A program made the position numbers and the translations under genes. The notes under the pieces were generated by a model that saw only the letters and a program-made list of their open reading frames with translations, made no database searches and was not told the DNA's origin. This document shows, piece by piece, positions 26,761 to 64,000 of a DNA stretch of 64,000 nucleotides. Where the stretch lies: the NCBI RefSeq assembly GCF_905475395.1, contig NC_058338.1, forward strand, positions 77,139,435-77,203,434, given 5' to 3'. The DNA is from Chrysoperla carnea (taxonomy: Eukaryota; Arthropoda; Insecta; Neuroptera; Chrysopidae). How positions within the stretch are numbered: the first letter of the stretch is position 1; the number at the start of each line of letters is the position of its first letter.

Positions 26761-29700
26761 TTATTGTGAGGGAAGCGGGCAAACTTTAACCGTGGGCCTT
26801 TTGAACAGCCCTTGTTTGGTTCGAACAGAGACAACTCTAATTACACCGTCTTTACTAGGGAAGATTTCTTCGATAACACCAAGAGGCCACCTTAAAGGCG
26901 GAATGCCATCTTGTTTTAAAATGACAACCATACCGGGTACGATTGGAACAGAGGGGGTGTTCCATTTTTCCCTGACTTGCAAGGTTGTTAGATATTCCAA
27001 TCTCCAGCGATGCCAATAGTCTTGAACCATTCTATCAATCAATTGAAAACGATCCAGCCGATTGATTGGTTCAGCACTTAAATCTGGTGCGGGAATATTT
27101 TGGAGCGGAGTTAGCGTCAAAAAATGTGCCGGAGTCAACGCGGTGGGTGCGGTTGGATCAGAACTAAGAACGCATAGCGGACGTGAGTTAAGTAATGCTT
27201 CAATTTGAGCTAACAACGTTGTTAATTCTTCATAAGACAATAGTTGGGAATTGAGACCTTTATATAAATGGGTTTTTACGGAGCGCACGTTGCGCTCCCA
27301 AATACCTCCGAAGTGCGGAGAGTTTGGTACGTTGAATTTCCAAGCTATTTTCCTTGAGGCGAGCTCATCTCCAATAAGTTCATTGTACTCTTTGGATATT
27401 ACAAGTTTGTACAACTCGTCTAAATTCGATTTAGCTCCCACGAAATTCGTACCTTGATCGGAATAAAGGCAGGCGCATAAACCACGGCGAGATAAAAACC
27501 TTTTGAAGGCTTGTAAAAAATGTTGCGTTGACAATGAACTTACTAGCTCTAAATGCACAGCTTTAACGCTTAGGCAAACGAAAAGGCAAATATAAGCCTT
27601 TTGCGACAGTGTACCACGTTTACGGTGAAGAGTGATACTTACAGGTCCTAAATAGTCAACTCCAGTGTGAAGAAAGGGTTTAGCTTGCTGAATTCTATAA
27701 GCAGGCAGGTCGGCCATCAAAGGAAATGTAGGTTTGGGTTTAAATTTATAACAATAGTTGCAAGATTGGATACGATTACGAATCACTCCACGACCCGCCA
27801 TGATCCAATATTTTTGGCGGATAAGTGCAGAAACTAAGTATGGTCCAGTATGTAAATTCTTACGATGATAGTAATCTATTAAGAGGTTTACTAGCGGATC
27901 CTTCTTTGGTAAAAGCAAGGGATGCTGCTGATCATAAGTGAGTTCAGCTGAGTTTGACAAACGACCCCCCACCCTGAGAAGGCCATCCCTCAAAAAAGGT
28001 CTGAGTTTTCGTAAATAAGGAGAACATTCCTTATTAGAAGCTAAAAGTGACATATCTTCCTCGAAATGTACCCTTTGTACTACTCTAATCATTGTTAGCT
28101 CAGCCTTTTCCAATTGTTCAGCGAGTATATAATTTTGTCGCGGTAAAATACGAAGAAATCGCAATACGTATATAGTAGCCCGAATTAGTTTCCACCATGT
28201 TGAAATTCGGGTCACTAATAGATATAGTGAATTTGCTCCTTTATCAACGAGCGGAAGCGCTATTAACTTTTGTTCAATAGTGGTCGAACTTACACCACTA
28301 TCAAATGGTTGAATAGGCCATTGATTTCTGTAATTAGATAACCAAGATGGCCCAGTTAACCAGAGCGGGTGTTCTAATAATTCGGAAGGAGTTAAACCAC
28401 GTGAAATGCAATCAGCGGGGTTAGATTGGCTATCAATATGGAACCAATTTTCTTTGGAAACCAACTGCGTGACCTTTGTAACGCGATTTGCCACAAATGT
28501 CGCCCATCTTGAAGGAGAAGAATTTAGCCAACTTAAAACTACGGTGCTATCAGAAAATGCAAGTAGGTCGATTATAGGAATCCGGGATCCATATGTATCT
28601 AATACAAAATGAACTAATTTTGAAACTAAATGTGCGGCGCATAATTCTAATCTGGGAATAGAAATTGTTTTTGTTGGCGAGACTTTCGATTTAGAACACA
28701 GCAATGTGACTTTGATTTGTTTGTTTGGAGTTAAGGTTTGGAGGTAAACTACTCCTCCATAGGCCTTTTCACTGGCATCAGCGAAAGCTACTAAAATTGT
28801 GGGACTATTTTTGAAAACAGACACATGTCGCGGAACTTGAAAATTATTCAACAACGATAGTTCATCAATGAATAATAACCATTTTTTTAATATGTTAGGC
28901 GGTGGCGTATCATCCCATTGAAGTGCAAGACTCCATAAATCTTTAATAATTAATTTAGCGTAAAGAATAACGGGAGATAAAAGACCTAAAGGATCATAAC
29001 AGCGTGCAATGGTGGATAAAATTATGCGTTTTGAACAGGTTTGTCTAGTTGAGTTAACCTGAAATGATAAAATATCTGCATGCGGGTTCCATTGAAGGCC
29101 AAGCACCTTCAATGTATCACTTTCAAATTGTAGCAGGTCAACAAGATGAATTTCCGGTGGAATAATGTCGAGAAGTTGTTTACTATTAGAGGACCACTTG
29201 ACCAATTCAAATCCTCCTGATTTAAACAAACCCACCGATTCCTCATACAACAATTTGGCATCATCAATACTATCGACACTAGAGACAAGGTCGTCTATGT
29301 ATAGATCTCTTAAAACAACTTGTGCAGCATTCGGATATGTTTTGGATTCATCTTTAGCCAATTGTTGGACAACTCTTAGAGCCAAATAAGGAGATGATTT
29401 GATTCCAAATGAAACTGTGTTCAATTGAAGTTTTGTAACTAGTCTCTCAGGTGAGAAACGCCATAGTAGTCTTTGATAACGTCTATGCGATTCAGCAACA
29501 ATAATTTGTCTGTACATTTGTCGTATGTCTGCACACATGGCAATGGAAAATAAGCGAAAATTCAATAATATAGTGCGAATATCTATCTGCAATTTTGGTC
29601 CCGCATATAAAATGTCATTTAAAGATAATGAAGAAGTACTTTTCATACTGGCATCGAAAACTGCGCGAACTGGTGTTGATGAACTAGCTTTGAATATGGG

Positions 29701-31938
29701 ATGATGAGGTATATAATAGGTCGTTGAGTCGGAATCGTTTTCTTCGACTATACTCATGTGACCTTGATTTAGATAATCTTGAATAATTTTGTCGTATTCA
29801 AGTTTTAACTCTGGAGAAGCCTTTAGTCTCCGTTCCAATGAAAGATATCGTTTATAGGCAAATGAATATGAATCACCTAAATTTGAAGGGTGATTTTTAA
29901 AGGGCAATGATACAATATATCTCCCAGTAGGATCTCTATCAACCGTTGAAACGAATAAATTTTCGCAATATTCATCTTCAGGGTCCATTGCCACAGATAC
30001 TGAGACCTCTTCTAATTCCCAAAAACGTTTTAAAATATTTTCTATGGGTGGTTCATCCATTGTAGTGCAAAAGATCTGAGTTTGATCGGTTGAAGACAAA
30101 AGAGGTGCGCAACCCATAACCACATAGCCTAAGCTACTCTCAACTGCAATAGGTGATGATTTGGAGGTGGTTACTCTACCAGTGTAAAACAAATGCGGGA
30201 ATAATTGAGCACCAATTATTCCGTCTATAGGACCCGGTTGATGGTATTTTTCATCTGCAAGGGGTAAATTCTTAAAACAGGACATGGATTCCGTGTTTAT
30301 TGGTGACGTTGGTAATTGATTCGTTATTTTGTTGACTACTAAGACATTTATATTGTATGATTTTAAGGGATCATATCGCGAGAAAAATGTTAAGTTCGAT
30401 TGTCCATGGGCTGGGTTGGAATTTGATCCGATTCCACTAATTGAATTGTAAACTTTGGACATTGGTAGTCCAAGGCGTTTGCGACAATTTGCGGTTAATA
30501 AATGAGCTTGAGATGCACTATCCAAAATAAAACGAGCTTGTTGCTTTTCTCCATTACAATCTTGAATATAAACAATAGCGGTAGCTAAGAGCACTGTTGA
30601 GTTTTGTTGAGGACTATTACACGATGTCGTTGAGCACAAACTATGCGAGGGCGAAATACTTTCTAAACTATGGTTTTCTTTCGGCGGTGATTTTGACTCA
30701 ACGGCAATAGGTCCAGTTTGCGGTATTGTAACCCTAGTTTGGTCAAAATGCAATAATGAATGATGTTTCAAGTTGCAAGTTGAACAAGTTGATTTTGAAT
30801 TACAATTTGCTATAAGGTGACGATCGCTTAAGCAATTCAAACATAAATGTTTTTGAATGGCGCAAGTGTATCTTTCCTTTGGGGAAAGCCTTATAAATTG
30901 GCTACAACGGTAAACTATATTGTGGTCAGTCTGATGGCACATTGGGCATTTGTTATTTGATGAGCCATTTTTAATCATAAATGAAGACATGGTTTTGGAC
31001 TTATTGTGGCTAGCGTTATTAATTTGGCTGGATTTAATGCTATTAGCATAAGTAACATGAGGACGTGAGCGCGATAAAATTTTAGTTTGTTCTTTCACAA
31101 ACTCAATAATATCTTCGTAATTTGGGATAGAATCTTTTCTTTTATAATTTTCGAACAAACGTGATGTTTCGGGATCAAGTTTAGATAAAGCTAAATAAGA
31201 AAAAATGAAATTTGATAAATTAGGGATATCTAATTTTTGTAGGGCAACTACAGCGGTATCAAATTTTTCGACGAATGAATTGAGCTGGGACTCAGAGTTT
31301 AATGATTTAAATTCAAAAATTTGTTTCAGATAAGAGCTAGCTAGTACGCGTTTATCCTGGTATTTATCAGTAAGTGATTTCCAAATTATTGGATAATTTT
31401 CGGAAATTGGAGGTATTCCAGAACAAATATTTAAGGCGTTTCCTTTTAGCTGTCCAATTAGATAATGTATTCTATCCGTGTCATTTAATTCACAATTATC
31501 ATGAATCATGCTTTTGAAACACTGGTAAAAGATGGGCCACTGAGAAATATCCCCTGAAAATGTAGGCAATTCTAATTTAGGAAGTCGCGGTAAAGATCTA
31601 TGGGGTTGTGAATTTTGTATTGTCGATGAGGTTGCCTTTTCTCTATCAGCTACTTGCCTAGCTACAAAGCGAATATGATCACGTAGGTCCTCGAAACTGT
31701 TTAAACATTGGTAATCAGGAACAAAAGTTTTGTCTAGTTTTAATTCAAGGAGGTTTATGGAATCGATTGTTTCCGTAAATAATAAACTGGTTTGCTCGAA
31801 CCCCTCGTATTTAATTTTGAAAATACGAAGATTTTCTGAAGTTGCAATATTATTGCTTGCATCGTAGATACCTTGAATTCGACGAAAAAGATTCTCCTTT
31901 TTTGCCGTTAAAACTCTCAATTGTTGTTCAGTTGCCAT
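26761..31938 (-). CDS. BEL/Pao Gag-Pol polyprotein, 1,725 residues
   Basis: This single uninterrupted frame encodes the structural and replication polyprotein of a BEL/Pao retrotransposon. The ATG at 31938 (ATGGCAACTGAACAACAA) is preferred over an in-frame upstream TTG. The order of domains is typical. A Gag DUF1759-type region spans roughly residues 100-300. Cys/His knuckles lie around 335-395 (CPMCHQTDHNIVYRC, CLNCLSDRHLIANC, CSTCNLKHH). The aspartic protease has LDSASQ near residue 473. Reverse transcriptase has its YIDD box near 879. RNase H (LVAFADASEKAYGG) is near 1050. The integrase has an HHCC zinc finger followed by catalytic D (HTGVDYLGP), D (YSDQGTNF) and E (IWERNVRS) near 1428, 1493 and 1547. 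The protease motif DSA rather than DSG/DTG is common in this clade. There is no env-like frame. Every catalytic motif is present, so the copy may be competent apart from its 5' LTR. Confidence 0.95.
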   Translation of the reverse strand: MATEQQLRVLTAKKENLFRRIQGIYDASNNIATSENLRIFKIKYEGFEQTSLLFTETIDSINLLELKLDKTFVPDYQCLNSFEDLRDHIRFVARQVADREKATSSTIQNSQPHRSLPRLPKLELPTFSGDISQWPIFYQCFKSMIHDNCELNDTDRIHYLIGQLKGNALNICSGIPPISENYPIIWKSLTDKYQDKRVLASSYLKQIFEFKSLNSESQLNSFVEKFDTAVVALQKLDIPNLSNFIFSYLALSKLDPETSRLFENYKRKDSIPNYEDIIEFVKEQTKILSRSRPHVTYANSIKSSQINNASHNKSKTMSSFMIKNGSSNNKCPMCHQTDHNIVYRCSQFIRLSPKERYTCAIQKHLCLNCLSDRHLIANCNSKSTCSTCNLKHHSLLHFDQTRVTIPQTGPIAVESKSPPKENHSLESISPSHSLCSTTSCNSPQQNSTVLLATAIVYIQDCNGEKQQARFILDSASQAHLLTANCRKRLGLPMSKVYNSISGIGSNSNPAHGQSNLTFFSRYDPLKSYNINVLVVNKITNQLPTSPINTESMSCFKNLPLADEKYHQPGPIDGIIGAQLFPHLFYTGRVTTSKSSPIAVESSLGYVVMGCAPLLSSTDQTQIFCTTMDEPPIENILKRFWELEEVSVSVAMDPEDEYCENLFVSTVDRDPTGRYIVSLPFKNHPSNLGDSYSFAYKRYLSLERRLKASPELKLEYDKIIQDYLNQGHMSIVEENDSDSTTYYIPHHPIFKASSSTPVRAVFDASMKSTSSLSLNDILYAGPKLQIDIRTILLNFRLFSIAMCADIRQMYRQIIVAESHRRYQRLLWRFSPERLVTKLQLNTVSFGIKSSPYLALRVVQQLAKDESKTYPNAAQVVLRDLYIDDLVSSVDSIDDAKLLYEESVGLFKSGGFELVKWSSNSKQLLDIIPPEIHLVDLLQFESDTLKVLGLQWNPHADILSFQVNSTRQTCSKRIILSTIARCYDPLGLLSPVILYAKLIIKDLWSLALQWDDTPPPNILKKWLLFIDELSLLNNFQVPRHVSVFKNSPTILVAFADASEKAYGGVVYLQTLTPNKQIKVTLLCSKSKVSPTKTISIPRLELCAAHLVSKLVHFVLDTYGSRIPIIDLLAFSDSTVVLSWLNSSPSRWATFVANRVTKVTQLVSKENWFHIDSQSNPADCISRGLTPSELLEHPLWLTGPSWLSNYRNQWPIQPFDSGVSSTTIEQKLIALPLVDKGANSLYLLVTRISTWWKLIRATIYVLRFLRILPRQNYILAEQLEKAELTMIRVVQRVHFEEDMSLLASNKECSPYLRKLRPFLRDGLLRVGGRLSNSAELTYDQQHPLLLPKKDPLVNLLIDYYHRKNLHTGPYLVSALIRQKYWIMAGRGVIRNRIQSCNYCYKFKPKPTFPLMADLPAYRIQQAKPFLHTGVDYLGPVSITLHRKRGTLSQKAYICLFVCLSVKAVHLELVSSLSTQHFLQAFKRFLSRRGLCACLYSDQGTNFVGAKSNLDELYKLVISKEYNELIGDELASRKIAWKFNVPNSPHFGGIWERNVRSVKTHLYKGLNSQLLSYEELTTLLAQIEALLNSRPLCVLSSDPTAPTALTPAHFLTLTPLQNIPAPDLSAEPINRLDRFQLIDRMVQDYWHRWRLEYLTTLQVREKWNTPSVPIVPGMVVILKQDGIPPLRWPLGVIEEIFPSKDGVIRVVSVRTKQGLFKRPTVKVCPLPSQ

Positions 31939-32327
31939 TATGATAGCCGTTAACAATTAATTTTTAATAACAAACAATGAATAAAGATACAAAAAAAAAT
32001 TTCTAAAATGTTCCAAAAAAAAAATCCCAACAAATGAATTTAAGTATTGTTTAAACAATTCTTGAATGTTCAATAGATGTTTATTGAATGTTCAATAAAT
32101 GTAGCGAAGCAAATTCAAATGAGTTTAGAAAGCTAAATTAAATTCAAACTATTTCAATAAATGATTGCTATGGCGGAGCAGCAATTTTGTTTGAGACAAA
32201 CTATAATAAAGTACGAAATAATTTTTAAATTTTTATTTTCTATTTTCGAAATTAATAAGTAATTAAATAATCTTGATTCGCAAAATGGTTTTAATTATTA
32301 TCTCGAATTTAATTAGAAAATTAAATA

Positions 32328-44400: not shown

Positions 44401-47400
44401 AAAGTTTCAGTTTCAGTACCCAGTTTTTCGACTGGAATTGTCGTGTAAGTTTTTATTTATTACCTTCAAAAGACCTTTATAATATAACAGTTTTTGTTAA
44501 TTACAGTTTGTACGATGCAAATACACATTCAGTTATTGCTCGTTACGAAATTCAAAGTATACTATTTTATGCGCGTGGAGTTGCAGACACTAAAGAGGGT
44601 AGTTGTTTTGCGTTTACATGGTCACATGGCGAAACACAAGAATCAGCTATATTTCAATGTCATGTATTCCGATGTGACATTCCAGAAGCTGTGTCACAAG
44701 TATCAGGTAACATTCAATTTTTAAAAATATTTTACTTACCCAGATATAACGTTAAGAGGGTGTCCTGGTTTAGGAGCCTCAATTGTAGGCACTTTTCAAA
44801 CTAAGAAAATGAAAATCATTTATGGAGTCATTTTTTATATGATAATTATTGACATTTTTAAAAGACAAAATGCAAATTGTAAAAAATAAATAAAAATTGA
44901 AGTCAGGCCTACAAAAAAAACACGGTACCCTGGTTGACACGATTCCAGCCTTTGTAGTGACCTGAATCAAAAAAATTTTAAAAATTTTAAATTAGTAACG
45001 GTGTCGTTGTCGTCTGAATCTCGGTAAAAAAACTAACAAAAAGGGGTGTAAGGAAGATTACCACCAAATTTCAAAGAAATCGGTATAGTAGAATTTGATA
45101 TATCATGCACACCACCTCCAAAAATGTAGTTTCAACAAAAACGCATGGTAAGTTGGAGAGACAATTCCAATAATAATATTACTCACCGTACATTGGTCCT
45201 TCTTCTACTTCATATGCAATGTCTGGCAAAGTTATTTATAAGCAGTAGAAGCTCGCAGTACAGAGCGATCAATTCAAACCTCGTTACCAGAAAATCTGCT
45301 ATATCTTCGAAAATAATTCGAATTTTGAAAACCCGTTTAAAGACATATTCTTAAGGATCTTACCTTTAAAAATATGCAAAAAAGTAATCGATTTTGACAA
45401 ATTTTTAAACTAATTTAAGTTAATCATTAAATTTGTTTCTAGGATGTTTTTCAAAAGCATTCCAACGAGCCCCACGATCAATGACCAATTCCGTAGCATC
45501 AGTTACTGACATGTCAAGTTCAGCATGTACATTACCTGATATACAACAGAGGACTTTAGTCTGTGTTTTTGAATTATCTTTAGAAATTAAAGAAGACGAT
45601 GGCCGAGTAAGTTTCTTTAGAAATTGAAGACAATTTTTTTTAAAATTTTAATTAAATTGTAACTTTTAGGGTGGATTTTCTTCGGTATACAAAGATAGAT
45701 CTGGTTTTAAACTACGTTCGAAATTAGTCAAACAAATCTGGATCAGCATGAAACAAGTGACAGATCAAGCTGTTTCAGATGGACCACACCTTCATATAGA
45801 ACGATGTTTTGGTATTCTAGTAGCACCTGGGCGACATGTTAAACATTCTGACATGCAGTTATTAGAAATGGTAAATTTCAATTGCTTCTATCATACATTT
45901 AGAACCTCGAAAGCAGGCAATTTGTCTGTATAATAAATTTATAAATTGTAAAACAATTAATTTTATAATAGAGAGCTATTTATCCATATTCTTTCGATGA
46001 AGTATTGCTAGTGATTTAAAAATTGCTTCGCAAATTGAATTTTGGGTAGATTTATTTTCGGAATTTAAAATTATACCTCCGATTTTTATGAAACCAGGCC
46101 AAACTGTTCGTATGAGGGTGTAGAAAAAAGTCAGTTTGGTCAGAAAGTGTGATCTTTAAAGGAGAACTTTTGATCAGAATGATCCAAAGAACATTTTAGG
46201 GTGCGTTAGAAAAAGTTTCACAGAAAACCATTTTCCTATCTAATCTTGCGGAATCTTTTACGCGTTTAAATGTACTGGAACGCGCTTGAAAGTTCGTAAT
46301 AGCCAACTGCTGAAAATTAATGAAAAAAACTATTGGATCTCATTTTTTGTCCTTTGGCATATTTCCTAAGCCTCGCCGTTTCCAAAAAATTCGTTATTTT
46401 TACGGAAACGTTATTTTTGTTATATGATTTTTGCACCTTACCTCGCCCTTTTCTAGATGTCGATAGTTTGATTTTATATTTTTACACAAAGATTAATACC
46501 CCAATAGTTCCTAACTAAGCCGGCCATAACTGCATACCTACCCCTTCCTTTCCTTTTCCTTATCTCTTTTTGTGGTTCTATACACTGTAAATATTGTTTA
46601 AAAAAAGAATGCGTAAATTGAATCGAATATGCATGAATGACCTATATTTTGTAAGATAACTTTTAAAGTCCAGTAAATTTTTAATATACTCAATATTAGT
46701 TACAAATAGACACATTTAAAAAAATATTGAATGCTTTCAATTAAGTTGAGGCTGTAATTATACCATAAAATTTTAACCGAATTACAGGTACCTATGGGAA
46801 CAACAACAACAAATAATACTTGTGAAAGTTATGTAATATCAGGTCATTGGGATCCATCAGACGCAGCATTTGCACCATTAAATACTGAAACACCAAAAGA
46901 AATAACACAATACATAACGATTGCTGCTGATCTTGTAATACGCGGTGTTCCAGAACCAGTACGATTTTTAGTTGAGACACCTGTTAAAGTATTTTCTCAA
47001 AACGAACGTTTTTGGTATTTCACTAAACGGCCATTAGTACAACAGTTTATATTAAATTTGAAAGAAGTATTATCACCAGATACTGGTGATATTATATACG
47101 AAGTATCCAATTTAGAAAGTACTGGTGATCTAGATCGTAACCGTTTAAGTCTAATGTTAAATATATCAAGTTTAATACGAACACCAAGTATTACGTCAAT
47201 CGACACGTTAACACCAAAAGAAGAGTATCATTCTGATGGCGATGAACCACTTTTAAGTGGAACTGGTTGGGTATCCAAAGATTGTCCTGAAGCAGTTTTG
47301 GATAGTTGGGCAGAAGTATTAAGTAGATGGGAACCAGGTGAAGCACGACCACGTGGCTTAGCTGGTTTAGTGAAGATGGGTATACCAGAAGCGTTACGTG

Positions 47401-50400
47401 GCGAAGTATGGTTAAGATTAGCAAATGCCGATCATGATCAGCAAATGATGGAAACATATCGTATTTTAATAACAAAGGAAAGTGGCTGTGAAAATGTTAT
47501 TCAACGGGATATTAATCGTACATTTCCTGCACATGACTTCTTTCGTGAAGCTGGTGGTCTTGGTCAAGATTCATTGTATAAAATTAGTAAGGCTTATGCA
47601 GTTTACGATCAAGAAGTTGGTTATTGTCAGGGTTTAAGTTTTCTGGCAGCTACGCTATTATTACATGTAAGTTAATGAAGTTTAAAATTCATTCGTGCAA
47701 ACTTTTCAAATTATAAATTCCCGTCACTTTTTTTCTGAACGAAAAAGTGCTTACAAAATTAATCGTTACTTTTTTTTAGATGCCCGAAGAACAAGCATTT
47801 TGTGTCCTAGTTAAATTAATGTACGATTATGGTTTACGAGATTTGTATAAAGATGGTTTTGAAAATTTGTACTTACGACTTCACCAATTAACCAGATTAA
47901 TTCAGGTTAGGTTTTTTATTGATAATTTATTTTATATTTATTGTCCTCTCATATATATACGAAAATCACTGTACATCATTATCAATTTGTAAAAAAAACA
48001 CAATTATTATTGAAAATAATCAATTTTTATCAGTTTATATTTAACAATGAACTTTAATAATCATTTCAAGTTACTACAATCGTGGAAACCCTTTTTATAG
48101 GGATTCTAAGTGTGGGAAACAAGGATACACCTTGTGGGAGTAAAAATATCAACTTAATGGTCTTGATCCCAAACGGTTTTAAATATTTGTTTCGATTTTT
48201 CGAGACTCTTTAAGGAAATATTCTGGTCTAGAAGCCTAAATTGTGATAAAAAAATTAAAATTTTTTCGAATTACAGGCTGGTGAAGTGGGACTTCAAAAA
48301 AATTCGTCACCCTGGTTGACACAATTCCAACCCTTGTAATGATCCGAAACAAAAAAATTAAAAAAATTCTTAATTAGTAAAAATGGTCTAATTCTTAGCC
48401 AAAAGCCAAAAAAAAATCACAAAATAGCGTCGAAATGAATAGAAAAATTTTTTAGATCTTTTTAATTTTTTTTTTAAATCCAAAGTTCAGACGATCGAGA
48501 AATTTATAAAGAAGACTTACCATGTTTTAAAAGAATCAATCGACTAAAACTTTAGATATCATGTCAACCACCTCGAAAAATGTATGTTCAAGAAAAACGC
48601 GTTTTAATTTGAGAGACTTCCAGCAGAGTAATTCGGAAAATAATATTACTTACTTTGGATTCATTAAGGGTCTAACCTATAAAAATATGCGAATATTGAT
48701 TTGTAGCTTCCTTTCACTTTATGAGTCAGAGATAATTCTCAATACCAAATTTTATCCTTTCGTAATATCTCTTTGGTTTCTATGTGGCGTCACATTCTAA
48801 AATGGTCCTTTTTTTTGCAGGAACAATTACCACCCTTAGGACAACATTTCGCCGAACATAACATTGAAACGCATATGTTTGCATCTCAATGGTTTTTAAC
48901 ATTATTCACAGCACGATTTCCCCTATATTTTGTGTTTCATATTATTGATGTGGTACTTTTACAGGGCATAGAAACTTTGTTTCAAGTTGCTTTAGCACTT
49001 CTAACTGTAAGAGATTATAAAATTAAATTAAGTGATTATTATTATTACACTTTAGTCTTATTTAATTAAAAAACTTACTTAAATTTATTACAGATGTGTA
49101 AAAAAGATTTGTTACAATTAGATTTTGAAGGCATTCTTAAGTATTTTCGTGTATCGTTACCCCGCCGTTGTTTAACTGAAGAGGTTTCCCGTGGTGTTAT
49201 GAAATTAGCTTGTAGTATAAAAGTAAAAAAATTGAAAAAGTACGAACAGGAGTTAATTGATCACAAAGGTAAGCCTTTTTTCCCAGTATTTCAATAAATT
49301 TCTCTCTATCACATTTTGTACGTCATTTTATTTCGAAACGGCTAACATCTAAATTTAAACTTCCACAAACCTAAAATCAAACGTTTATAATAAATAAATT
49401 TCGAAGTATACGTTGAATATTTTATATTGTTAATAAATTTTTTAGAATCACAAGAAAATGCTGAAAATTATTCAAATGAATTAGCACGACTTAAAATGGC
49501 AGCTTTAAAACATGAAGAACAAAAACAATTATTAATTGAAGAAAATTCGAAATTAAGAGTTGCAATTAAAGATTTAACATCACGACATGAGTTAGAAACA
49601 TCAAGAAATGCAGCAATTATTGCCGAGTATAAACAGATTTGTAAGCGATTAGATGAACAAAGTACGCAATCAAAAATTGCGTTGAATGAAATTCGGGTAA
49701 CTTATTGAAAATTGTTAAAGATTATTCGTAATTGAAAAATAATTTGTATTTTTATGTTTTATAGGAAAAAGTCAGCGGTTGTGAAAAATGTCGTGTAGCA
49801 ATGTCCAATGTACCTACATCACCAGCGGGACAAATAAGTTCTGGTGATCATCCACTTGCACCAAAACATTTAAAACAGCAACAACAATTAAATGAAGAAC
49901 AAGCACAGGTTTACGAACGTGTTCACGAATTGGAATTAGAATTAGCACAAGCTAAGTTAGCCCAAGTAGAAGCAGAATGCAGAAATCAGGTAATTTTATT
50001 TATTTTTTACTTGATTCCTAATAAAATTTCTAGTTCCCATAAATAGCTCGAGCTTTATCATAATATATGGTAAAATGAATCGAAAAAAATAAAATTGAAT
50101 TTATTTAACGATTCCCATATATCCAAGCGATTTCTAGTATTCCTTTTTAAAACTCATCCAATAAATGAATTAAAATTTTGAGTTTTCATTACTCTAGAGC
50201 AGGGATGTTTTGGGCACACCACCAATGACAAAGTTCACTATGAAGTATTTATATTACGAATAAACGCAAGTGATCCTATAAACAAAAAATTTCGTTGGAA
50301 AAATTTCATACGGCACGTCTATGGCCTCATTAAATATTTCTTTTGGGAAAATGGTACGTTGATACATAAAGGTTTACCACCCTTGCTCTAGAGAATCCAA

Positions 50401-55803: not shown

Positions 55804-56812
55804 ATAGAATTGATATTTTCATTTTTTTAATATTTTTTACACTGCTTTTAATTATTTCATAAGTTAAGACAACCAAATTCGGTGATAGGCCTGTCCAATT
55901 TTAACAGTTCTGCGCCTGAGAACTAAAGCATAAATGGTTTTTGTGCTGGTTGAAAAAATTGAAGCCCGCCATGCCTGTTATAAGCCAACATTACAAGTGT
56001 AGCCTGAAAAGTTTCCAGCATAATTCAAAAATTCCTTAAAATTCCGCTTTATTAATCAGCATAGTCTTCTCTCCCTTTCATCTGTAAAAAACCCGTCCAA
56101 AAATATGATTGGCATATTTCAATTTTTTCTTCACTTGCGGTTGTTTTATTTTATTTTTACCTTCATCTTGTCAAATAATGATGAGAAAAAGAAATCTTAA
56201 TCATAAATATAATTTTAAGTAGTGTATTTAATATTAAACTCAGCATATACAAAATACACACACAGTTTGGCAATCTATTATTTAATTTTAATTATAAATA
56301 GGCCAACATACTTTAGTCTTTAATAAAACTAATTTCATAACTATAATAAATAATTGCCTTTATTGTTTTCAAAAATTGTTACACAAACGTTACTCGAATT
56401 CGAATTCTTGCATATTCGATTGAATTTACCAAATGATGTATGGGGTAGCGCCGGGCGTTCCCAAGCACAAAGGAATACTTTTCAAACATATTTTGTTAAG
56501 AACTGACAGCTACGTGCTAAAAAAGACATAATAATTCAATCGTTAATTCCTGCTAATTGGATTGTTTCAATACACAGTTACCATAGTTACCCGATAAAAC
56601 AGAGTCCTCGCCAACTTATATATCGATAATCAATCGGTAAAAAGCTGGGGTTTCACGACCGAACTCTTTTTTTTCAACTAATCATGGCCATAATCAACAT
56701 TTTGAAATACCTCGAAACATAAAAAAAATATTCAAAAACTTTTATCATACGTGTAACAATTTTTTATACTAACATAGTAATTTTTTGGTTGAGAAAAAAA
56801 AAAAATTACGCC

Positions 56813-57371: not shown

Positions 57372-57721
57372 ATACTTGAAATTTTGTGAGTGGCTTCCTT
57401 TTGACGAATCAACCAAGCTTTCTCTCTACGACTTTTTTTAAATGAGGATGATAACGTCATATTTAAGCTATCGGTCTGACAAAACGCAACAGGGTATTTT
57501 TGCCGGACACTATGGCCACTTTATATCATTCATAATTATAAAAAAAAATAATAATATTTTGTCCGAAAAAAATTCTGCTCCGAAGAACTTGCCTACCACC
57601 TCGAATTAATGTTACTAAGTGATCATAGTGTGCGACAAATTCCCTGTTGCATTTTTTCATTTTTTAGAGAGAAAGTTTGTTAGAATCGTCAAAAGAAAGC
57701 CACTCACGAAGTTTCAATTGT
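57372..57721. repeat. Inverted-repeat element just downstream of the KYAT-like gene
   Basis: The arms 57372-57427 and 57666-57721 are inverted complements with about 85% identity (GTGAGTGGCTTCCTTTTGAC / GTCAAAAGAAAGCCACTCAC). The 238 bp between them are non-coding. Confidence 0.65.
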
Positions 57722-57901: not shown

Positions 57902-60900
57902 TCAAAACTTCGTTGGTATTTGTGATTGAAGTCGGCTTCCTGCTAATTGGATTGTTTCAAGTTTCTGAAAGAAAAAATTTATATAACATAGTTTATGATT
58001 AATAGTTCGCTCAATATTTACTTGTGCAAATGAAAAACAAAAGAAAATGGATTTGTTTTCATTTCCATAGTTTATTATTGGCACTCCGAGTATTCCATAC
58101 GGTGATGTTAAACATTCCGTGGCATAATCGTTGGATACGTCTAAAAATACATCAAAATGAGTATTATTATGTCGGTATTATAAAATTTATATGTATTTAA
58201 ACCTTGATGATTTTGTTTGAAATTAATTTCCACTACAATATAATATCCACCTTCTGGATTGATGATATTTCGAAAACCACATTTTTTTAAATACTTTAAC
58301 AATAAATCACGATTGTCAGCGTAATTACTTTGAAAATATTCAAATCCATATTTTTCAATAGTTCTGGCTAAAGTTTCCTAAAACATTTTTCTCAATTTTT
58401 ATAAAGATAATAATTTTTATTTAAAATATACGTGAGGTGTTTCGGTTAGAATTACCATGACTGAATTCAATTTTTCTGTTTTCAAATATACAAACAAGAA
58501 GCCTTTCAATGTTACTCTGTAACTTTTGTTACCTGAACTGGTGTAAAAGAACTAAATGACAGTTGATGAACAACTTTTATCCTATTAACTAATTTTTCAG
58601 GACCATACACCCATGCAACTTTCCAACCTGTACGTCCATAAGTAACTCCACTGCCTCCTATTGTTAATGTTCTATTCCACGTCTCAGAAAGCGTTGCTGA
58701 AAGTAAATTTTTCGAATTAAATAAAAAAGCTCAAAAGATAAAAAATTTTCTCCATACCCATGCGAATATGTTTATTATGAACTACCGTTGAATCTAAGCA
58801 TTCATCAACTACGCATAGAACATTCCATTTTTTACATAAATTTGTAATAAATTCTAATTCATTTTTGGTATACACTTTTCCCAATAAGTAATTTGGATTA
58901 CTAAATATTATTAATTTGGTTTTATTATTAAATAAATTTTTCAAACATTCAAAATCAATAATCCAATTCATTGAAGATTGATTTTGCTCATTTTGATCTT
59001 CCTAAAATTGATAAAAAAATATAGATTGAATTTGGAAAATATTCAGGACTCAATTTTTTCCTCAGCTAACATATTTATTTGTTAATTTTCCTTTATAACT
59101 CCAAATTTTATCTTGTAAGTGTCAATATTTTATTAAATTAGAGGCAATACAAAGATCAAAATATAAAAAATTTACGGTAAAATATTTGTGTTCAAGTTTT
59201 TTTTTCGATCTAACATTGAATAAGTAAATATTTTAAAAGTTCATAGATTAGTTCAATAAAAATTGAGCGCGCTTTATTATGAGTGAAATTTTCAATGCCA
59301 TCTATATCGTTGTAATATAAGTAACGCTATTTACATTTTTCGTAAATTATAGTTTTTAACAGCTTTTAAACATTTTACTTACTTTCGGTTTCTTTGAAAA
59401 TTACAAAAAAATTAGATAAAACTATGAGTTCATCTCGACCTCGTATAAGAAAACGGTTAAGCGGCGCTGCGAATAGGAAAAGAGCAGCAGAAAAATTGAA
59501 AAAGGTAGAAGAAGTTATGTCAAAAACTGCTAAGCTTACAACTTTTTTCGAGAAAAAAGAAGAGGTGCAGTCTTATGAATCGAATTATTTCGGTCACAAA
59601 CAGGAAGGTAATTATTAAATTGCATGAATATATTTTATTTTATTTTAACTTAAATTCTACGAACTTAATTGTGCATTAAGAATTTTATAAAACTCTTAAC
59701 CTAAATGAAGAAATGAAACAAAAGTATAGGTTATTGTTAGATTAAAAAGCCTTTAAACCTCTTTTTTGAGCATCGTAAAAGTAAATCAATGAAAAAACAC
59801 GAAATTACTGATTCTCAATAGCACACAATAAAATCGTCATAAATGCATTTTTAGATAACTATATCCATGTTTCCAAATCACCTACTAAATTAAAGGACGT
59901 GAATACTTACGACAAACTTTAAAGGACATTCATGGACAATTCCACCATACATTAGCACAAGAGGTTTACAATTGTGATAAACTGGAGTAATCAGAATGAC
60001 TTCATCACCTTTATCAATAAATCCAGATATGCATATATATATAGCTTCTGTTAAACCCATTGTAATCACTAAGTTATTATCAGGACAAATTTGTCGATCT
60101 AATAAAGTCCTATAATATTTCGCCAAAAGATCTGCCAAACGTGCATGACCCTACAAAACTCAAACATAGTTCAAAAAAGTTTTTATTTCCCATATAGTCA
60201 CGCTCATTTAGTGTAATTTGTCCATTTCATGAAGAGTATATCCATCCGTACTTTTCATTTTCATCTATTTTGTAAAGAGGAGAGATGATTGGAATTTAAC
60301 CACCAAAACAGGCCCTAATATAATTAACCAAATCCAATTTTTGAATTGATTGGTATTGATATATGCTGGGGGGCCTTTTTTGTATAATAATTTGACCCGT
60401 AAAGATATGTCATAGAAAGGACATACGTTTCATGCAATATTCAATTTCACTAAGTGAACACGACAAATATTTACGTACAAAATCTCTCGTATATTGATTA
60501 AATAATTTTGTTTTATCAAGAACAACATCTGCTAAAATATTATTCATTTCTGGATTTGGACAAAAATCTATAAAGTGCCTACGCAAATCTATTGGTTTCA
60601 ATTCATTGCTTAAATTCACATCAGATGACCTAAAATTTTATAAATATTTTTATCCAAAATTTTATTAGAAGTATAAATTTTTAACCTTATATGAGAAACT
60701 TTTTAAAAAAACAGTCTAGACACATCATTGTTGTAAGCGAGGATTTTAACTACTGAACTCTAACACATGGAGTAAAAGCAAAGTTCAAAGCAATTTTTTT
60801 AGCTAGGTGTGCTTATTTTGAGCCATACTGTACGTTTGTGTTTTTATATGATCCACAGTGTGGTGTACATATAGGACCACTTTTGCATTTCAATAAAAGA

Positions 60901-60987
60901 TAAAACTTATCAGACTTACCAAAATTGATGCAAATTATTGCTACCTTCTTGGATACTTTTTAAAAACACTAATTTTCTATTATCCAT
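57902..60987 (-). CDS. Kynurenine aminotransferase-like pseudoenzyme, 8 exons, 407 residues
   Basis: This is a fold-type-I aminotransferase related to KYAT1/KYAT3. Exons, in transcript order: 60987-60920, 60629-60479, 60150-59911, 59001-58758, 58696-58533, 58377-58203, 58140-58022, 57964-57902. All introns are GT-AG, phases agree and no stop interrupts 407 codons. Family landmarks remain: NQYTR (64-68), DKGDEVILITPVY, LGKVYTKNEL, CKKWNVLCVVDE (209-220), RTGWKVAWVYGPEKL, GGYYIVVEINF and IFFCFSFA. By eye alignment the active site is gone. The Schiff-base Lys in the usual SAGKTF box is Val252 (GSGVTY). The NPHNP Asn is Tyr191, the cofactor Tyr after DEV is Leu222, the carboxylate Arg of YIRFCF is Phe380, and the GQG loop is Arg39-Arg40-His41. 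The gene is head to head with an intact paralogue at 62680 (35% identity in exon 2, identical exon length and phases). It is either a pseudoenzyme with a new role or a young pseudogene still without stops. Confidence 0.87.
59002..59910. other. Intron 3 of the KYAT-like gene, carrying a transposase-derived fragment
   Basis: The intron separates the 240 nt and 244 nt exons (phase 0). At 909 bp it is the largest intron of the gene. It contains a plus-strand open exon resembling the N-terminus of a hAT-type protein (59424-59607), antisense to the host gene. Confidence 0.7.
59424..59607 (+). pseudogene. hAT/ZMYM1-like N-terminal exon fragment, antisense in KYAT-like intron 3
   Basis: The ATG at 59424 opens a basic, Lys/Arg/Ala-rich peptide (RPRIRKRLSGAANRKRAAEK, then LKKVEEVMSKTAKLTTFFEK). 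This resembles the 'KRKLSGAxKRKxxxExxxxxxxLTxFF' N-terminus that precedes the TTF zinc finger in hAT-derived ZMYM1-like proteins. The frame ends at a plausible donor (GGAAG|GTAATT, 59607/59608) and a stop follows at 59616. No later exon, terminal repeat or target duplication was found nearby, so it is probably a stranded first exon. Confidence 0.5.
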
Positions 60988-62679: not shown

Positions 62680-64000
62680 ATGATTTCAAACAGTTTTAAA
62701 CAGTTGTGTAACAACCGTCGAGTAATTCAATCTACTATTTCTTGTCTATCAGCCGCAATGTCAACAAGTACTCAAAAAGGTGATGCCAATAAATTTAAAC
62801 TACCGAAACGATATGAAGGAAGTGAAAAAAGTGTTTGGTAAGTTTAATTATGTTTATATTTTGTTTTATCTCAAAATTTTGATATTTTCAATGTAATTAT
62901 AATAGATAAGCTAACCGTACTATACATTGAACATTAATTAACTTTGTTAAATTTGTAAAAATAATGTTTTGAGGGGTTTTCAATATAAAAATATATTTGA
63001 TCCAATATTGTTTCCATAAATCGGTGTATCAAAAATAAGTTTTTGGCTGAAAGTCAAGAATCAACAGCTGTTTTACATGTCAAAAATTATAGGTTTATTT
63101 GGATATCTAACCATAGACTAATATTAAATATAGACCACAAAGGCACAAAAGCAAGCTTTCTGTACTTGCTTTCAAACGACAACTGTCGTTATCGCTGTGT
63201 GATGGTACAGTTAAAATAATTCGATAGATATGCAGATGTTCCTTTCATCACATAAACATCACCGTCTGTATTAAGCTTGATGACTTTACCCAAGTGTAAT
63301 GATAACGATGCTCGTCGTTAATTTGGCTACTGATCGTTAACTAAACTTGTAAAACTTTAGACGATAAAAGCGGTTGAATTGAACATTTGGGATTGTTTTT
63401 GATAAATTCGTAATTATTTATATTTAATAAACATTTGGATATGGGGAAACAGTACAATGGTGCTTTATGTTGCGAAATCATTTAAATGAATAGATTTGGG
63501 TTAATGAGTAGCTTTCTTGTTCCTTTTTTTTTTATATAGACAATCGTAGTTGTTGATCCTTTTTTGTGCTAAGGTTGCTAAATATTTATTTTGTTAAGGT
63601 ACTAATGTAATTTTGAATTCAGGGTTGAATATATTCAGCTAGCTTTAGACCATAAACCACTCAATCTTGGACAAGGATTTGCTGATTTTGCTCCACCAGA
63701 TTACATCTCAAAAGCTTTAGCTGAAGTATCCACTGGAGAGAATGTTTTGTATCATCAATATACTCGAGGATTTGTACGTTAAGATAATCTAAAAGCAGTG
63801 ATGTCACAGATGCATATTTTTCGATATCTAGTACCTACTTGAGGGAACTCTATCTTTCCTTGATTTACGAAGGATTGAATTCTACTAAACCCAAGGTTGT
63901 CGAAATTTTTTCATCAAATACATTTTACCGTATCCGTACATCACTGCTGTAAATATAACCGAAAGCTTTTTTTTGATTTTTGAATTATTGTTTTATAGGG
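62680..64000 (+). CDS. KYAT: Kynurenine aminotransferase (KYAT), first exons; continues past the window
   Basis: This is a PLP-dependent aminotransferase predicted to convert kynurenine to kynurenic acid and to transaminate other amino acids such as glutamine (cysteine-conjugate beta-lyase family). Exon 1 is 62680-62837 and ends in phase 2 (TG|GTAAGT). Exon 2 is 63623-63773 (151 nt). The TTTTATAG acceptor at the window end places the first two bases (GG) of exon 3 at 63999. Exons 1-2 encode KRYEGSEKSVW, then VEYIQLALDHKPLNLGQGFA, DFAPPDYISKAL and YHQYTRGF, with the GQG substrate loop and NQYTR-type motif intact (here HQYTR). The ATG at 62680 adds a basic, Ser-rich leader (MISNSFKQLCNNRRVIQST) resembling a mitochondrial targeting peptide. 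A second in-frame ATG at 62758 would give a cytosolic form. The catalytic Lys exon lies outside the window. Confidence 0.88.

Follow-up and report, generated by a model that had tools for sequence, protein, structure and literature searches.

The 64,000-nucleotide window analysed here, from the genome of the lacewing Chrysoperla carnea (PMC10116181), contains a minus-strand gene (60987..57902) whose product is identified as a kynurenine aminotransferase (KYAT) paralogue by its Pfam domain and by comparison with solved structures. This paralogue lacks the Schiff-base lysine. With a probability of roughly 0.55, it is a folded KYAT-derived pseudoenzyme on a fold-type I PLP scaffold, which would serve as a non-catalytic subunit, in a hetero- or homodimer, or as a binder of KYAT ligands. 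A first-pass annotation had proposed an intact gene in which all catalytic and cofactor residues were replaced under selection for a non-enzymatic role. The gene is real and the loss of all residues was overstated, while a selected non-enzymatic role is the interpretation that fits best.

The gene has eight exons totalling 1224 nt (407 codons plus stop, with zero internal stops) and seven GT-AG introns whose phases match in a splicing check, which bears out the eight-exon, 407-residue open frame first described. All exons lie on the minus strand, and replaced residues are given in human KAT1 numbering, transferred to the lacewing protein by alignment. Exon 1 (60920..60987) encodes residues 1-23, begins with the ATG at 60987 and is followed by a GTAAGT donor in phase 2, as in a canonical-looking neighbour. 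In exon 2 (60479..60629) the N-L-GQG stretch has given way to D37 and R39-R40-H41 (H41 standing for G36), and QYTR and Y69 are kept. In exon 3 (59911..60150), T107 replaces Y101 and Y131 replaces F125. Exon 4 (58758..59001) has S187, Y191 and L192 for N181, N185 and P186 and L222 for Y216, keeps D219-E220, and includes Met164, where the NCBI model discussed below begins. In exon 5 (58533..58696), G249 and V252 replace S244 and the Schiff-base K247, and K260 is kept. Exon 6 (58203..58377) is followed by an unusual donor, GTTTAA, at a junction that is identical in the NCBI model. Exon 7 (58022..58140) covers the Arg398 position, which aligns to F380 by eye or to C382 with MAFFT and is not Arg in either case. 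Exon 8 with the stop (57902..57964) was aligned together with exon 7; the last 60 residues, taken jointly, score 39-46 against the C-termini of three KYATs, compared with shuffled maxima of 23-29. Translation agrees with every residue that had been named, namely R39-R40-H41 (CGT AGG CAC), Y191 (TAC), D219-E220, L222 (TTA), V252 (GTT) and F380 (TTC).

The 407-residue protein has the conserved domain PF00155 (E-value: 4.6e-29). The closest solved structure is the Aedes KYAT 1yiy (E-value: 4.3e-74, query residues 20-398), and alignment to insect KYATs and solved structures, a check that had been suggested at the outset, confirms the replacement of Lys by Val252. Median identity of the paralogue to insect KYATs is 36%, compared with 62% among the insect KYATs themselves. 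Four ligand-site positions are kept: W18 (W23), Y63' (Y69, which reaches from the partner subunit), D213 (D219) and K255 (K260). We take D213 to be the Asp at the pyridine nitrogen and K255 the phosphate-side Lys, and we count N181, Y216, S244 and G36 as ligand-site residues. W18, Y63, Y101, F125, N185, K247 and R398 have been described as active-site residues, with Asn185 and Arg398 contacting the substrate carboxylate (PMC4926479). The earlier claim that every ligand-contacting position was lost fails at the four kept positions, and Y131 corresponds to the Tyr of mouse KAT3 at the F125 position (PMC4926479), which is also present in 12 of 175 canonical relatives.

What stands of the claim is a heavy and concentrated loss. 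Across 149 insect-type KYATs, conservation reaches 97% or more at 95 columns, of which the lacewing protein keeps 59 and has lost 36. For 175 canonical KYATs, 91 columns reach this 97% level; with lacewing gaps scored as lost, 8 of the 10 cis-ligand sites among them were lost and 2 kept, against 25 lost and 56 kept elsewhere (Fisher p 0.0039). This ligand list goes beyond the residues described in PMC4926479 and was compiled after the losses were known, and the W18 (kept) and F125 (Tyr) columns fall below 97% and so outside the 10. A sequencing error at codon 252 (58646-58644) is ruled out, because GTT is three base changes away from AAA or AAG and because 8 of those 10 ligand sites have changed. 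The hypothesis that partner-side residues were kept and own-side residues lost was dropped as evidence, since only Y63' fits it. Human KAT1 F278 and H279 align to Tyr-Thr in P0133 and in Aedes KYAT, and the lacewing protein has a one-residue deletion there. Tyr-Leu at N185-P186, as in the lacewing, is also seen in a KYAT of the horseshoe crab Tachypleus tridentatus (P0061), which retains the Lys.

Considered as a catalytic KYAT, the protein has aminotransferase-domain homology and D219 for Asp213, and it lacks the equivalents of K247, Asn185 and Arg398. The missing Lys means that no internal aldimine can form, and with the Asn and Arg gone nothing holds the substrate carboxylate. Loss of these three residues excludes classic transamination with fair confidence. 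An active enzyme with altered chemistry, using the fold without an internal aldimine in the manner of some PMP-using dehydratases that have His in place of the Lys, might still bind some PLP or PMP through the kept equivalents of D213 and K255. Such an enzyme is very improbable here, however, as Val supplies no base at the Lys position and the equivalents of N181, N185, Y216 and Arg398 are gone. For a pseudoenzyme, the mechanism considered first, by analogy with LCB1 and prozyme (below), would be a mixed dimer with a live KYAT, and the second a lone ligand binder. The parts retained for such a role would be the scaffold, which is that of a dimeric protein, the partner-reaching Y63', the pyridine-nitrogen Asp D213 and the phosphate-side Lys K255.

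An intact reading frame, the loss of catalytic residues and a history of constraint, which together mark a PLP-fold pseudoenzyme, are all found in this gene. The constraint was assessed by simulating neutral change in a single canonical KYAT, using the local base composition (400 runs). At 90% identity the runs contained a mean of 3.8 stops and 2% of the 400 were stop-free; at 80% identity none of the 400 was stop-free, and runs taken down to 55% averaged 16.5 stops. Set against these runs, an open frame at the divergence of the lacewing gene indicates that the divergence accumulated under frame constraint. Retention of canonical residues, relative to canonical proteins, would be flat across conservation classes under neutral change; in order of increasing conservation it was 0.48, 0.26, 0.42, 0.44, 0.61 and 0.65. 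Both tests inform on past constraint rather than on the gene's current condition. GC content at the three codon positions is 0.396, 0.310 and 0.199, against 0.266 in the gene's own introns, which is also counted in favour of this reading.

The spliced protein finds its best database match in P0001, an NCBI protein of 244 aa from C. carnea (100% identity, 60% of the query). Although exons 2-3 are clearly homologous to KYAT, this model, which has one member sequence, comprises only exons 4-8, and full-length transcription is therefore doubtful. The predicted fold of P0001 (pLDDT 82.6, pTM 0.78) best matches Aedes KYAT (E-value: 2.8e-13, TM 0.62 over the query, rmsd 5.8); this is mild evidence that the exon 4-8 half would fold, since its alignment consists nearly entirely of other KYATs. 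Among the matches listed (best 120 of 2063), there was neither a transcript source for the paralogue nor an orthologue from another lacewing, the next best match standing at 39%, and so no sister-species protein with the Lys-to-Val change for which a search had been advised. Likewise, a separately annotated N-terminal half (candidates of ~148-470 aa) was not among the best 120 of 173 matches. The canonical C. carnea KYAT was also missing from these 120 of 173, where an identical protein should rank first, so the absence of an orthologue and of an N-terminal half carries little weight.

A formerly constrained paralogue that lost its function recently, with its frame and splice sites intact by recency and perhaps a truncated exon 4-8 transcript, is a possible but less probable explanation. 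It would account for the start of the NCBI model within exon 4, and it draws further support from the very long lacewing branch (5.3 to 10 changes per column), the unusual intron 6 donor and G+C at codon positions 1 and 2 that is below that of a RabGAP exon in the window (0.505 and 0.410). However, catalysis was lost long ago, since V252 needs three base changes and several catalytic sites have changed multiply. In that time no stop has appeared, where neutral runs already acquire several at 90% identity, and retention still follows conservation. The selected non-enzymatic role proposed at first is thus upheld by frame, retention and ligand-site enrichment, and it is tempered by the ligand positions that were not lost and by the exon 4-8 model.

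A 24-nt stretch of exon 8 (57937-57960) recurs perfectly, in the same orientation, at 56547-56570, 1390 bases downstream. This copy shows local rearrangement and is counted against the pseudoenzyme reading. Just downstream of the paralogue there is also a 53-nt inverted repeat (57376-57428 and 57665-57717, 87% alike), perhaps a small mobile element. The 909-nt intron 3 (59910-59002) contains a basic 82-codon stop-to-stop stretch on the opposite, plus strand (59370-59618), which has no Pfam match. A transposon in this intron was considered and rejected, as a search for transposon ends found a short palindrome only, with no inverted repeat pair, and the opposite-strand frame matched nothing in Pfam. 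Elsewhere, the window holds a BEL/Pao retrotransposon (26761-31956, minus strand) with an intact single ORF of 1731 aa (Peptidase_A17, DUF1759 and DUF5641) and the large exon of the RabGAP/TBC gene (46758-47675, plus strand; PF00566 and PF12473).

The Lys-less paralogue sits head-to-head with a canonical-looking KYAT, of which exon 1 (62680..62837) and exon 2 (63623..63773, LNLGQGF ... QYTRGF) were recognized by homology on the plus strand, with borders set by eye. This gene extends past the window end, and its Lys position lies outside the window. By eye, the first two intron positions are common to both genes: one falls between TG and G of a Trp codon and the other after YTR-x-F, each in the same phase in the two genes. 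The matching intron places and phases make DNA duplication with introns kept the most likely route, and the paralogue probably arose by an inverted duplication at the DNA level, next to the canonical gene. A processed pseudogene is ruled out by the seven introns, the first two placed as in the neighbour, and by the absence of a stop.

The first-pass annotation knew of no described insect pseudoenzyme of this type, but the lacewing gene is not a one-off, as fireflies have a clade with comparable Lys-less KYATs. A search of open-licence PubMed Central for kynurenine aminotransferase with pseudoenzyme found nothing; a Lys-less KYAT copy was not found in the part of the firefly kynurenine aminotransferase literature covered there, and the one match for a firefly aminotransferase pseudoenzyme concerned streptococci. 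The relatives compared numbered 298 (120 of 2063, 120 of 173 and 105 matches, overlaps counted once and P0001 excluded). In their Schiff-base column 286 have Lys, eight have a gap and four have another residue. These four form one clade (100/100): P0060, P0226 from Abscondita terminalis, P0246 from Photinus pyralis, and P0235. The contigs that carry P0060 and P0235, of 1493 and 1643 bases, resemble transcripts in that most of each is taken up by the reading frame. K247 is replaced by T, S, T and N in the four proteins; N181, N185 and Y216 are lost; Y63' and K255 are kept in all four, as are the equivalents of Arg398, S244 and G36, and D213 is lost in two. Their signatures are W-[KR]-G-C and FFLKGWK, and at seven columns at least 97% conserved they share W, C, S, H, D, K and V.

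Identity within two firefly pairs rises with canonical conservation (0.46, 0.68, 0.74, 0.88 and 0.40, 0.67, 0.72, 0.88). Together with the seven shared residues, this is the pattern expected if purifying selection had acted on a new function. The ligand-site test gave p values of 0.12, 0.015, 0.48 and 0.49 in the four proteins, so that enrichment is clear in one only. P0060 has a predicted fold with a pLDDT of 92.8, mild evidence because its alignment is mostly of canonical proteins. Taken together, the firefly sequences suggest that a KYAT can be retained without its Lys.

When the lacewing row and the fragment P0074 are left out, the sister of the firefly clade (99/93) is a click-beetle paralogue, P0227 of Ignelater luminosus, in which the residues tested, Lys included, are all kept and the seven signature columns are canonical. 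P0227 (ILUMI_21995) is numbered three from P0128 (ILUMI_21998), a KYAT whose model is without the Lys region; given the nearby gene numbers and contigs of equal length, the two are probably close neighbours. P0074, from Lamprigera yunnana, is a very divergent firefly KYAT copy (282 aa) in which the Lys is kept (SAGKVFLVTGWR); its long branch falls close to the Lys-less clade.

On the sequences compared, the Lys losses in lacewing and firefly look independent of each other. One ancient Lys-less clade predating the Neuropterida-Coleoptera split would agree with a tree holding the lacewing and the four firefly proteins together, which is not rejected (AU p 0.597, lnL 2.4 higher), but the lacewing branch is so long that this topology test has little power, and the program warned of long branches in each tree. 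In one tree both long rows were unplaced within insects. Support for the grouping of the firefly clade with P0227 is lower once long rows are included: the set that also takes in P0074 has 94/83 in the tree of all rows, and a quick tree that includes the lacewing but omits P0074 gives 84. An ancient clade would also fit the overlap in lost columns, as the lacewing has lost 13 of the 18 near-invariant columns lost in all four firefly proteins, against 20 of 73 others (p 0.0007). In addition, it and P0060 both depart from the conserved residue at 20 columns of 95% conservation or more, and at 6 of these they agree with each other. If the losses were independent, the overlap suggests release of the same functional surface, the PLP pocket, in both groups. 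VYTKNEL was ruled out as a shared derived motif, since it is common to the lacewing and P0060 and absent from P0226, P0246 and P0235.

Against a single origin, the Lys-bearing sister P0227 would put the firefly loss within beetles, and the replacements differ (V as opposed to T/S/T/N, R-R-H as opposed to W-K/R-G). With the Arg398 equivalent also kept in the firefly proteins, independent losses are the simpler account and one ancient clade is unlikely. Insects thus seem, as far as these proteins tell, to have turned KYAT into a non-enzyme more than once. The wider proposal that they repeatedly made a tandem KYAT copy a conserved PLP-less partner of the live KYAT, separately in lacewings and fireflies and acting in mixed dimers or by ligand binding, is a tentative one. 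If it is true, a repeated KYAT pseudoenzyme beside a live gene would form a natural series from metabolic to regulatory dimer, in which the PLP-less partner would tune kynurenine and glutamine/cysteine-conjugate metabolism. The firefly clade, with its transcript-like contigs and Lys-bearing sister, makes the question testable now in obtainable species.

Few PLP-fold pseudoenzymes are known to have a proven role, and LCB1 is the model case. LCB1/SPTLC1 belongs to another PLP family, and the trypanosome prozyme has a fold unrelated to that of the lacewing protein. LCB1/SPTLC1 is a paralogue without the PLP Lys that forms a heterodimer with the Lys-bearing LCB2 in serine palmitoyltransferase (PMC3794620); the partner is proven there, whereas for the lacewing protein it is only supposed. 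Prozyme, a dead AdoMetDC paralogue, forms a heterodimer with its live counterpart and thereby activates it, a mechanism established by structure (PMC5201418). Yeast Alt2 is an alanine aminotransferase paralogue in which activity was not detected, and loss of the Lys was not found in the available part of its account (PMC3458083). The Lys-less firefly paralogues are like the lacewing protein in their KYAT scaffold, in the loss of K247, N181, N185 and Y216 and in keeping Y63' and K255, and differ from it in keeping Arg398, S244 and G36, in the loss of D213 in two of four and in their own signatures. With the enzymes KYAT1-KYAT3 (KAT I and III; Aedes 1yiy, human 3fvs), the lacewing protein shares homology over residues 20-398, PF00155 and the predicted fold of its C-terminal part, and it differs from them in having no Schiff-base Lys and in the replacement of N181, N185, Y216, S244, Y101, G36 and the Arg398 equivalent.
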